In this document: piece after piece, positions 32,250 through 39,309 of the stretch | How the letters are laid out: each line of letters opens with the position of its first letter | Position numbering within the stretch: position 1 is the first letter of the stretch | NCBI GenBank assembly: GCA_011390635.1 | Contig: JAABSA010000002.1 | Location: 124,308 to 188,307, forward strand | Length of the DNA stretch: 64,000 nucleotides | Origin: Desulfotignum sp. | Lineage (GTDB): Bacteria; Desulfobacterota; Desulfobacteria; Desulfobacterales; Desulfobacteraceae | Direction of reading: 5' to 3' | Notes under the pieces: model-generated | Seen by the model: only the letters and a program-made list of their open reading frames with translations | Told to the model about the DNA's origin: nothing | Databases searched by the model: none | Program-made: the position numbers and the translations under genes

Positions 32250-32432
32250 TTACGCATCATCTCCGGCTTTTACATTTCTGTCCTTGTAGGCACCGCATTC
32301 AGGGCAGGCTGTATGGGGAAGTTTGGCTTCCTGGCATTCCGGACAAACGGTCACAGTGGGGGCCTGGGTTTTGTAATGGGTCCGTCTTTTTCTGCCCCTT
32401 GCCTTGGAGCTTTTCTGCTTTGGTACTGCCAT
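32250..32432 (-). CDS. rpmF: 50S ribosomal protein L32
   Basis: The 60-residue protein starts MAVPKQKSSKARGRKRRTH and has the two zinc CxxC motifs CPEC and CPEC. AGGAGA lies before the start. It is the first gene of the long minus-strand block. Confidence 0.98.
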   Translation of the reverse strand: MAVPKQKSSKARGRKRRTHYKTQAPTVTVCPECQEAKLPHTACPECGAYKDRNVKAGDDA

Positions 32433-32605
32433 TGGTCTCTCCTAAAGTATTAAGTATCCGGTTAATTCAGTGTATATGTCATTATTGCATCATATGATGA
32501 TAAAACACATCTATCTACCGCAAATTGGTGTATGTGTCAACTGGATATTTGCTGTCAGCATGCCGGAATTTCGACGGTTCCGTGCAGCAGTCAATCCCGA
32601 ACCCC

Positions 32606-32768
32606 GCCCCTGGTGGTGTCCTGTGCCCGGCCCGAGATCCTGCGGGGGCCTGTCTGCATCAGGACAATGAAGTGCGGGTAAGCCGTCCTCTGGTTGAAAA
32701 CCATCCCGACATATCGTACCAGGCCCCCTCCGGCTCTGACGGTCCGTTCACAGGACACCACCAGGGGC
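32606..32768. ncRNA. Structured RNA or inverted-repeat element of unknown class
   Basis: A perfect stem of 20 pairs joins 32606-32625 (GCCCCTGGTGGTGTCCTGTG) to 32749-32768. Inside it, after an 18-base/20-base internal loop, a second perfect stem joins GGGGGCCTG (32644-32652) to CAGGCCCCC (32720-32728). The apical part has smaller hairpins, AGGAC/GTCCT and TGGTT/AACCA. A long closing stem, a central bubble and an apical stem resemble 6S RNA architecture, but I do not recognise its conserved bases. It lacks the signature bases of SRP RNA, RNase P RNA and tmRNA. The strand cannot be decided. A miniature transposable element with 20-base terminal repeats is the alternative. Confidence 0.55.
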
Positions 32769-32900
32769 TCCCCGCAAGTGGATGAATTATGGATATGGTA
32801 TTGCGTGTGGGTGTGTTTTATGGTACCTAATAGCCCTTATTTTCGGCTGGATGTAATTGATATAGTATATGGATTTAATTGCATAGTATAGCTGTCAGGG

Positions 32901-32939
32901 TGTTAGCTAACTGCTAAACGCTAACAGCTAACAGCTAAA
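32901..32939. repeat. AGCTAA-type short repeat, copy 2
   Basis: TGTTAGCTAACTGCTAAACG and then tandem CTAACAG units form a small imperfect hairpin in the gltX leader. They match the tracts at 31402-31433 and 42661-42685 in composition. Confidence 0.5.
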
Positions 32940-32971
32940 CACCCGCGCGATTGTGCGCGAACGGAGATACC

Positions 32972-34372
32972 ATGAAACCCATTGTCACCCGATTTCCCCC
33001 CTCCCCCACGGGATTTCTTCACATCGGCGGGGCCAGGACCGCTTTGTTCAACTGGCTCTATGCCAGAAAAACCGGTGGAAAATTTATTTTGCGCATTGAA
33101 GATACAGATGAGGCCAGATCCACCAAAGATTCCGTGGATGCTATTTTAGAGGCATTGCAATGGCTGGGAATCGACTGGGATGAAGGCCCGTACTTTCAAA
33201 CCGAACGAAAAGAGATTTACAGCCGGTATATTGAAAAACTGGTGGAAACCGGCCATGCCTATTATTGTTCGTGCACCCCGGATGAGGTCAATACCATGCG
33301 CGAAGCTGCCCGGGCCAAAGGCCTTAAACCCATGTACAACGGCAGATGCCGGGAACAGGGCCTGGCTTGGGCAGATAATACCGTGGTCCGGCTGAAAACC
33401 CCGGTTACAGGTGTTACCGTGGTGGAAGACATTGTCAAGGGAGATACCGCCTTTCAGAACGCAGAAATGGATGATTTTATTATCCAGCGCTCTGACGGAT
33501 CAGCCATGTACAACCTGGCCGTGGTGGTGGATGACCTGACCATGGGCATCAACACCATTATCCGGGGAGATGACCATCTGATCAACACGCCGAAACAGAT
33601 CCTCATCTACCGGGCCCTGGGCGCGGACCTGCCTGCTTTCGGCCATGTGCCCATGGTGCTGGGACCTGACAAAGCCCGGTTGAGCAAACGCCACGGGGCC
33701 ATGTCCGTTGATGAATACCGGAAAATGGGGTATCTGCCGGATGCCGTGATCAATTACCTGGTACGGCTGGGATGGTCCCACGGAGACCAGGAGTTTTTTA
33801 CCCGCATGGATCTCATAGAAAAATTTGATCTGGAACACCTGGGCCGGTCTGCTTCCATGTTTGATATGGAAAAGATGACCGCCTTGAATGCCAAGCATAT
33901 CCAGGCAAAAGAACCGGGTGCGCTGGCGCCTTTTGTGTTGCCCCATTTACAGGATCTGGGCATTGACGCCTGTGATGATACCTTTACCAGCAAGGTGATT
34001 GAAACCCTGCAGCCCAGAAGCAAAACCCTGGTGGAGATGGCCGCTGCTGCACGGTTTTACTATGTGGATGAACCGGAACTGGATGAAAAAGCCGCTGCCA
34101 AATTTCTTACTTCAGAAGCTGCCGCCATGCTCATTCAGGCTGCTGATGACATAGAAGCCCTGCCTGAATTTACCCAGGCCGCATTGGAGGATGTTTTCAC
34201 AAAAATCATGGCGGATTCTGGTCTCGGCTTTGGCAAAATCGCCCAGCCGTTGCGGGTGGCGGTCACCGGTACCACGGTGAGCCCGGGCATTTTTGAAATG
34301 CTGCTGGCCCTGGGAAAAGACAAAACTGTCCAACGCATCCGGCGCGCGGTTGCCTGGATCCAAAACCAGTGA
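32972..34372 (+). CDS. gltX: Glutamyl-tRNA synthetase
   Basis: The 466-residue class I synthetase has the HIGH-type motif FPPSPTGFLHIGGARTALFN at its start and the KMSKS-type loop ARLSKRHGA near residue 240. GGAG before ATG 32972 fixes the start. Because gatCAB is also encoded in the window, this enzyme probably misacylates tRNA-Gln with glutamate for amidation; that is inferred from context. Confidence 0.97.
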   Translation: MKPIVTRFPPSPTGFLHIGGARTALFNWLYARKTGGKFILRIEDTDEARSTKDSVDAILEALQWLGIDWDEGPYFQTERKEIYSRYIEKLVETGHAYYCSCTPDEVNTMREAARAKGLKPMYNGRCREQGLAWADNTVVRLKTPVTGVTVVEDIVKGDTAFQNAEMDDFIIQRSDGSAMYNLAVVVDDLTMGINTIIRGDDHLINTPKQILIYRALGADLPAFGHVPMVLGPDKARLSKRHGAMSVDEYRKMGYLPDAVINYLVRLGWSHGDQEFFTRMDLIEKFDLEHLGRSASMFDMEKMTALNAKHIQAKEPGALAPFVLPHLQDLGIDACDDTFTSKVIETLQPRSKTLVEMAAAARFYYVDEPELDEKAAAKFLTSEAAAMLIQAADDIEALPEFTQAALEDVFTKIMADSGLGFGKIAQPLRVAVTGTTVSPGIFEMLLALGKDKTVQRIRRAVAWIQNQ

Positions 34373-38241: not shown

Positions 38242-39309
38242 TTATTCAATGAGCATGGCATCCCCATAGCTGAAAAAACGGTACCCATGGGCCACCGCCG
38301 TTTCATAGGCATGCAGGATTTTTTTGCGGTCATAAAAGGCTGACACCAGCATGAGCAAAGTGGATTTCGGCAGATGAAAATTGGTGATCACGGCATCCAC
38401 GCAGTGATAGGCAAACCCCGGATAAATATAGAGATCACACATACCGGCGCCCGGCTTTACCATCCCTGTTTCATCGCATAAAAATTCCAGGGTCCGCACC
38501 GATGTGGTGCCCACCGCCACCACCCTTCTTTTCTGCACTTTGGCGGCATTGATCTTCCGGGCCGCCTCCGGGGACAGTGAAAAATACTCGGAATGGATCT
38601 GGTGTTCCCGGATATCTTCCACCCGCACCGGCACAAAGGTACCGTATCCAACATGCAGGGTGATATGGGCCGTATCAATGCCTTTTTGCGCCAGCTGGGC
38701 CATCAGGGGGCGGGTAAAGTGCAGCCCTGCTGTGGGAGCTGCCACAGCCCCGTCAGCCTGGGCATACACGGTCTGGTAGTTTTCCCGGTCCATGGCAGAC
38801 AGATCCGTCGTGTCCTGGCTGCGCTTGATATAAGGAGGCAACGGCAGATGTCCGGCGGTTTTCATATAATCGATAAAATGTCTCCCCCCTGAAAAACAGA
38901 TCTCGCAGATCCCGCCATCGACTGCCTGCACCCGGCCTGTGATCTGGTCTGTGAAATCAATGCCAGTGCCTGTTTTCGGCATTTTTGATGCCCGTACCAG
39001 GCACTGGCATTGAAAGCTTCCGGTTTTTTCCAGGTGTTTTATTCCCGCTGCATAGTCTATGATCAGCACTTCGACCCGGCCGCCGGTGGATTTTTTGCCG
39101 AACAGCCGGGCCGGGATCACCCGGGTGTTGTTCACCACCAGCAGATCCCCCTGCTGCAATAGATCCGGCAGAAGGGAAAACCGATGATGGGAAATGGTGT
39201 TGCTGTTTTTTTGAATACGCATCAGTTTTGCATCACTGCGGTTGTCACAGGGCTTCTGGGCAATGCGGTCATCCGGCAGCTGGTAGTCGTAATCAGATAA
39301 CAGATACAT
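38242..39309 (-). CDS. queA: S-adenosylmethionine:tRNA ribosyltransferase-isomerase
   Basis: QueA converts preQ1 in tRNA to epoxyqueuosine. The 355-residue protein starts YDYQLPDDRIAQKP and has AAPTAGLHFT, LHVGYGTFVPVR and ITNFHLPKSTLLMLVSAF, the family motifs. Its start overlaps the stop of the small upstream membrane gene by one base. Confidence 0.97.
   Translation of the reverse strand: MYLLSDYDYQLPDDRIAQKPCDNRSDAKLMRIQKNSNTISHHRFSLLPDLLQQGDLLVVNNTRVIPARLFGKKSTGGRVEVLIIDYAAGIKHLEKTGSFQCQCLVRASKMPKTGTGIDFTDQITGRVQAVDGGICEICFSGGRHFIDYMKTAGHLPLPPYIKRSQDTTDLSAMDRENYQTVYAQADGAVAAPTAGLHFTRPLMAQLAQKGIDTAHITLHVGYGTFVPVRVEDIREHQIHSEYFSLSPEAARKINAAKVQKRRVVAVGTTSVRTLEFLCDETGMVKPGAGMCDLYIYPGFAYHCVDAVITNFHLPKSTLLMLVSAFYDRKKILHAYETAVAHGYRFFSYGDAMLIE

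Follow-up and report, generated by a model that had tools for sequence, protein, structure and literature searches.

A probable degraded miniature mobile element carrying a covarying palindrome between rpmF and gltX of Desulfotignum

We analyzed a long hairpin at positions 32606–32768 of a 64,000-nucleotide stretch of Desulfotignum DNA (the window) and concluded that it very probably belongs to a degraded copy of a nonautonomous miniature mobile element (MITE) of the DDE type, which carries what we read as a DNA-level palindrome, its arms probably kept matched by template switching. The first-pass annotation, made from the sequence alone, had offered a divergent 6S RNA, a new noncoding RNA, and a miniature mobile element as candidate readings; the last of these proved right, given that copies are scattered, that some of the others are flanked by target duplications, that an autonomous relative shares the ends, and that related genomes have empty sites. 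The element is thus of an ordinary kind with an unusual cargo, and we consider the transposon's spacing preference toward −35-like boxes and the modularity of the palindrome more novel than the hairpin itself. The features of the locus, in window coordinates, are as follows:

32250..32432, − strand: rpmF (from the list of open reading frames; gene name from the first-pass annotation)
32517-32512, − strand: TAGATA, putative −10 element of the rpmF promoter, judged from sequence
32535..32540, − strand: TTGACA, abutting the insertion point and a putative −35 box for rpmF
32541..32772, + strand: MITE copy of class A with the right arm deleted, right border approximate (BLAST match of relatives and junction alignment)
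32541..32556, + strand: left terminal inverted repeat CTGGATATTTGCTGTC, with two mismatches against the consensus
32557..32605, + strand: left arm, from terminus to hairpin (homology with other class A copies)
32606..32625, + strand: outer stem, 5′ arm, pairing with 32749-32768 and covarying in 26 copies
32628..32637, + strand: conserved core, 5′ side, CGGCCCGAGA
32644..32651, + strand: inner stem, 5′ arm, pairing with 32721-32728
32652..32720, + strand: variable apical region, missing from the short (~72-nt) form
32721..32728, + strand: inner stem, 3′ arm
32735..32746, + strand: conserved core, 3′ side, TCT(GA)CGG(T)CCG
32749..32768, + strand: outer stem, 3′ arm
32972..34372, + strand: gltX (ATG chosen by eye, the listed open reading frame starting at 32951; gene name from the first-pass annotation)

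Folded as RNA, the region 32606–32768 reached −94.8 kcal/mol on the + strand (z −7.9) and −99.5 on the − strand (z −7.4), with none of 200 shuffles as good in either case; folded as DNA, it reached −48.2 (z −6.8). The folds of both strands bear out the perfect 20-pair closing stem reported earlier. The open bubble of 18 and 20 bases described within it does not hold, as the folds and the aligned copies show a kinked helix in which CGG(C)CCG-AGA is paired with TCT(GA)CGG(T)CCG and in which a C·T mismatch and a two-base GA bulge are conserved. In the inner stem, 86% of cells are paired among 26 copies, one pair being unpaired in 11 of them. The gap is indeed free of genes, the hairpin being covered by short mechanical open reading frames only, and rpmF and gltX diverge from its two sides. 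The 20-base arms, previously considered as possible inverted ends of an element, are not its termini; the true ones are the CTGGATATTTGCYATA inverted repeats outside the hairpin. Both the chosen ATG of gltX (three aligned relatives) and the TTGACA at the insertion point are also present in the orthologous sites of relatives. Just upstream of gltX, at 32860–32960, about 100 bases with GCTAACAGCTAA-like repeats are missing from three aligned relatives, and this stretch is possibly another small insertion.

The termini, for the transposon and MITE family also written CTGGATATTTGC, mostly lie about 65 bases to the left and 34–49 bases to the right of the hairpin. Allowing at most four mismatches, CTGGATATTTGCYATA-like ends were found on both sides of 44 of the 83 hairpins examined, on one side of 14, and on neither side of 25. 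In its own genome, the terminus pattern had 39 matches with at most one mismatch and a reversed control had none; within the window alone, three matches with at most three mismatches are little above chance, as shuffled sequences average 0.89 and 5 in 100 of them have three. The window copy keeps the left terminus alone, the right one being lost. Exact target duplications of 7–9 bp flank 15 of the 44 two-ended hairpin MITEs (8 bp in seven, 7 bp in five, and 9 bp in three), and the other 29 have no exact duplication of 5–11 bp. The missing duplications might fit old copies, yet they weaken this line of evidence.

Elements other than the hairpin MITEs have the same ends. In genome G033, 15 pairs of terminal inverted repeats (TIRs) bound a longer element, nine of them enclosing exactly 2545 bp, with 0–13 base differences from the first, and the others 2543 to 6759 bp; 14 of the 15 copies have exact 7–9 bp duplications. 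The 110-bp MITEs of G007 and G038 have exact 8-bp duplications in all three cases. An element copy in G007 contains an intact 556-aa open reading frame matching DDE_Tnp_1 (E 4e-14), while in the G033 copy that was read the frame is split and its longer piece matches at E 2e-13. The hairpin's own genome has, on contig C73, an open frame 81% identical to that of G007 (DDE_Tnp_1, 2.8e-16); the frame stops about 270 bases away from a terminus, and the other end of the element is beyond the contig. Compared with NCBIfam, the transposase stayed below the cut-offs of all families touched, the best being IS4 with 29.3 bits against 115, and it had no match in the plasmid collection. A YREK signature is named as a feature of IS4 transposases in PMC2266710. 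The family resembles MITEs of DDE insertion sequences (IS4-like superfamily) in having TIRs common with an autonomous DDE_Tnp_1 element, 7–9 bp duplications, and tens of copies that are mostly intergenic. Unlike usual MITEs, it has a conserved covarying palindrome as its interior and favors insertion sites 15–17 bp from a TTGACA-like box.

A BLAST search of the own genome with a 221-base query gave at least 79 rows, including partial and both-strand matches (40 of 64 candidates were scored), and 27 full-length hairpins were collected there. Such a search had been proposed as the way to tell a single-copy gene from a mobile element, and the many scattered copies point to the latter. Model R1 was built from 26 of the 27 hairpins, leaving out L014, in which the BLAST match did not extend over the outer stem, as well as the incomplete copies L024–L026 and L029–L031. 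It matched 12 of 86 genomes of the family, all within the 13 of the genus Desulfotignum, and none of the 73 from other genera; among 198 genomes drawn from the phylum, it matched the own genome only. As the genome searches used stricter filters, scored limited candidates, and counted both strands of the palindrome, copy numbers are rough. The core word is a poor guide to the palindrome in other organisms and was rejected as such: a scan gave at least 113 stretches in many taxa, and R1 matched just 15 of the 80 taken as named loci, all of them, among the matches listed, in Desulfotignum or in Desulfobacteraceae MAG35, whose match coordinates equal those of a same-genus genome (G085). So far, the palindrome is found only in the genus Desulfotignum. 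Among the papers listed, from outside the subscription journals, none described this repeat. Elsewhere in the window, positions 38956–39014 form a short hairpin (ATGCCAGTGCCTG.../CAGGCACTGGCAT) with a weak R1 match (12 bits), in which the core was not seen. For one copy, L327, the left flank matches L013 and the right flank matches L320, as if the hairpin copies marked rearrangement breakpoints or a further repeat adjoined them.

At the rpmF–gltX site, homology to six relatives in BLAST ends at 32540, immediately ahead of the left terminus. Ten other Desulfotignum genomes could be read on both sides of the site; nine of them lack any insert, and the tenth, G020, carries a different one. Absence from relatives, raised earlier as a point against an RNA gene, is thus what these genomes show. 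Alignment with G031, G084, and G041 shows that the right arm has been deleted and that host sequence resumes at or just after the 3′ end of the hairpin. The insert of G020 is a second MITE (L270:1900–2060), with different ends and a short palindrome, that was independently inserted in the same gap: AAATCCCTGC stands on both of its sides, and the unoccupied site of G084 has a single copy of it.

We found it highly improbable that the hairpin is a gene for a trans-acting RNA, be it a divergent 6S RNA or some other, a reading suggested by its general shape, a long stem with an interrupted middle, and by its very low folding energy. At gathering score, Rfam matched two tRNAs and no other family in the whole 64-kb window, in agreement with the earlier remark that the hairpin shows no recognizable conserved bases of 6S, SRP, RNase P, or tmRNA, and a permissive scan of 32440–32990 gave sub-threshold matches only. 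The matches to MIR8670 in that scan, which scored 24.8 and 23.7 bits where 150 is required, resemble generic long hairpins and were set aside. The 6S RNA of the genome lies elsewhere, as the one RF00013 match of 107.4 bits on C23 (L001:1501-1688 = G000:C23:50201-50388); the likeness of the Desulfotignum hairpin to 6S RNA is limited to the long interrupted shape, whereas it is multicopy, lacks synteny, and has no RF00013 match. The suggestion of a new single-copy syntenic RNA gene fails on the dozens of copies and on the empty orthologous sites in nine of the ten genomes. The position of the window copy between divergent genes also speaks against an RNA gene, as does the share of G·T among imperfect pairs, which at 5/24 and 4/26 is not above the estimated chance of about one in six. 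A cis-acting RNA, such as a 3′ UTR stabilizer or a terminator, scattered by the MITE and kept where transcribed, has somewhat more in its favor and is still very unlikely. According to raw counts from gene calls made by a simple codon score, the 27 copies of the own genome consist of 11 between divergent genes, nine in tandem and three in convergent contexts, two in a called open reading frame, and two unresolved. The tandem and convergent placements would be transcribed, and the apex and arms of the element are less conserved than the core and stem; against this stand the 11 divergent placements, the presence of both strands in tandem contexts (six and three), and the small number of G·U pairs, and a single transcript strand does not fit the orientations seen. 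Some hairpin copies may have a transcribed role, but for the window copy the RNA-gene reading is rejected on present evidence.

We studied the pairing of the outer stem in 26 copies picked by BLAST and not by structure, giving 520 cells, 96.3% of which pair. Both-sided changes affected 12 of the 20 pairs and left 49 cells Watson–Crick paired, a count reached by none of 500 shuffles and compared with 2–7 cells for slid partners; the imperfect cells comprised 5 wobbles versus 19 mismatches. Compensatory changes, proposed earlier as a check, are present among these copies, as strong arm covariation in which wobbles are scarce. Transversions make up 30 of the 49 both-sided changes, and for these no G·U pair can serve as the single intermediate. 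Wobble intermediates are expected to be favored in RNA, and their scarcity here argues for a DNA rather than an RNA reading. The short form showed 106 both-sided changes, 4 wobbles, and 22 mismatches among 600 cells in 30 hairpins, all of which were found via structure-aware models and are biased toward paired arms.

In 11 pairs of orthologous copies (redundant L005/L339 dropped; L312 in two pairs), we counted 6 co-changes versus 17 single-sided changes; as the single changes outnumber the co-changes, homogenization is slow and stems do decay. Five left-out pairs with one flank matched contained 3 co-changes and 26 single changes, 13 of the latter from L013/L327, where the arms are out of register. 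In L038/L321, two adjacent stem pairs changed together from TT/AA to GG/CC. Three of the six co-changes concern the same pair (pair 6, G–C to T–A) at different loci, and conversion between copies may lie behind this repetition. Inversion of the apex, which template switching can also leave behind, was absent from all 17 pairs. Stem and core differed at 55/835 (6.6%) and apex and arms at 259/1782 (14.5%; Fisher p 1.4e-9); the far flanks, partly coding, were 8.9% and 15.8% divergent, so that stem and core evolve just slightly slower than the left flank. For RNA genes, template switching has been described in the literature as a process that maintains stem arms (PMC8794818). A neutral MITE interior, with arm covariation stemming only from several active master copies with different arms, would agree with the excess of single changes between orthologs. 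We regard it as unlikely, as the six co-changes in orthologous loci compare with about 0.1 estimated from the single-change rate, and the apex and arms diverge faster than the stem and core.

The short form of the palindrome measures about 72 nt and lacks the variable apex. The short model, R2, matched 12 of the 86 family genomes, all Desulfotignum, and R1 and R2 together cover 13 of 13. Some short copies sit in a second MITE family with ends like GGCAATCGCATGTA, the G020 insert at rpmF–gltX being one of them; others have no recognizable element ends and, judged by eye, show just a CC ahead of the hairpin and a TC behind it. At a locus common to G000, G020, and G031 (L011 and L314 by BLAST; L354 by eye), G000 keeps one terminus intact and neither G020 nor G031 has a recognizable one, but the hairpin persists, once as the short form. 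A third element, considered for 64 identical bases after the hairpin in L009 and L027, was rejected, as L027 meets a contig end and the identity is a probable assembly overlap.

Among known systems, integron attC sites are imperfect hairpins of variable sequence whose unpaired bases mark the strand, and the Desulfotignum palindrome may be similar to them in these respects. The REP and REPIN elements with TnpA-REP (RAYT) are likewise dispersed extragenic palindromes with complementary stem changes, as described in PMC8266576, PMC3116915, and PMC3733652, and a conserved mismatch or bulge in the stem is reported for E. coli REPs in PMC8266576. In contrast to the 20–50 nt of REP and REPIN elements, the Desulfotignum palindrome has about 70–170 nt and lies inside DDE-type MITEs, and G·T pairs, frequent in REP stems by the account of PMC3733652, are rare in it. 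REP elements have a conserved tetranucleotide tag (GTAG or CGTC) at one end; the edges of the Desulfotignum palindrome, read by eye, are CC-hairpin-TC(C), which is GGAG-like on the minus strand, without a clear GTAG.

These similarities raise the alternative of a giant REP-like element that has an HUH transposase (RAYT or IS200-like) of its own as the mover and was captured by two MITE families, a scenario that we consider rather doubtful. The copies without recognizable termini and with CC-hairpin-TC edges are consistent with it, as are the presence of one palindrome in two MITE families whose termini differ, the conservation of mismatch and bulge in the manner described for E. coli REPs (PMC8266576), and the occurrence of a Y1 transposase in 12 of the 13 Desulfotignum genomes (45 Y1 matches). 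However, R2 matched no hairpin beside 20 of the 45 Y1 loci or beside three transposase loci, and G057 has hairpins and no Y1 match, and a RAYT as the mover is not supported; furthermore, some seemingly lone copies are class A copies with decayed termini (L011/L314, and L354 by eye). At L033:369–1034 (G000:C83), a RAYT-like Y1 transposase gene is flanked by GGGGACACCATACTTAATT repeats, which form a different repeat family.

The degraded DDE-type MITE remains our preferred explanation. The strong covariation of the arms, the few G·T pairs, and neighboring genes facing all ways lead to the reading of a DNA-level, REP-like palindrome, and such a role is our best guess. Under this explanation, the MITE was inserted next to the −35 box of rpmF, between the two divergent genes, and would be mobilized in trans by the autonomous DDE_Tnp_1 element. 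The long arms would be extruded or would fold in single-stranded DNA; the C·T mismatch and GA bulge, both conserved, could mark one strand for a protein, by analogy with REP elements. Template switching during replication would then copy changes from arm to arm, as suggested by the Watson–Crick co-changes and the slower divergence, and selection or repeated conversion would maintain the core. The case illustrates how a palindrome present in many copies can be mistaken for a structured RNA: it has a strong fold and strong covariation, but scarce wobbles and empty orthologous sites. Its tens of natural copies provide material for weighing template switching against selection in bacteria.

To study the target sites, we searched for hexamers matching TTGACA in at least five of six positions, located outside the terminus and pointing outward, and compared each count with that of the best other three-base window (loci L213–L232; TIR ends in L002–L068 and L300–L359). 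TTGACA-like hexamers were found at 15–17 bp from 25 of 46 ends in the own genome (best other window 4) and, for hairpin loci in other genomes, from 21 of 74 ends, a set including orthologous insertions (best other window 3). The hexamer test was weak for the G033/G007/G038 set, with 8 of 38 ends (best other 5), and for other TIR loci, with 5 of 35 (best other 4). In a test per insertion, framed after viewing the flanks, TTG occurred at 15–17 bp on at least one side in 16 of the 19 copies of the long and 110-bp types, where other windows averaged 2.9 and did not exceed 7. Among hairpin copies, which include orthologous insertions, the count was 34 of 42, where other windows averaged 5.1 and did not exceed 11. 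A −10-like hexamer followed 16–18 bp further at 15 of the 25 and 14 of the 21 ends, compared with 2–9 and 1–7 at control spacings, and at 4 of 8 ends in the G033 set, compared with 1–3. At the window copy, TTGACA lies directly at the terminus and not at 15–17 bp. That near-identical G033 copies show the spacing suggests target choice rather than later selection. It also led us, together with the duplications abutting the TIR, to reject the TIR as a regulator site of the host, an idea prompted by the distance to the −35 box. We read the pattern, on sequence grounds, as a preference of the transposon family for sites 15–17 bp from a TTGACA-like (−35) box, be it a true promoter or a TTG-like word; among the papers listed, from outside the subscription journals, none described promoter-spaced insertion by an IS4-like element.

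A wider proposal, which we put forward only tentatively and hold to be possible rather than probable, is that Desulfotignum has a superfamily of large, genus-specific DNA palindromes with a conserved strand-marking core that are bound in vivo by a host or HUH protein, ride in at least two MITE families, and are perhaps mobile alone, and that the transposon reads sigma-70-type promoters. If so, insertion at a fixed distance upstream of a −35 box would land between promoters and spare the genes, and the fixed spacing, if confirmed, would be a simple means for a transposon to find safe sites. The same family appears to include a minimal MITE, L057 (G000:C39:74532-74579), a 48-bp palindrome consisting of two termini and little else.
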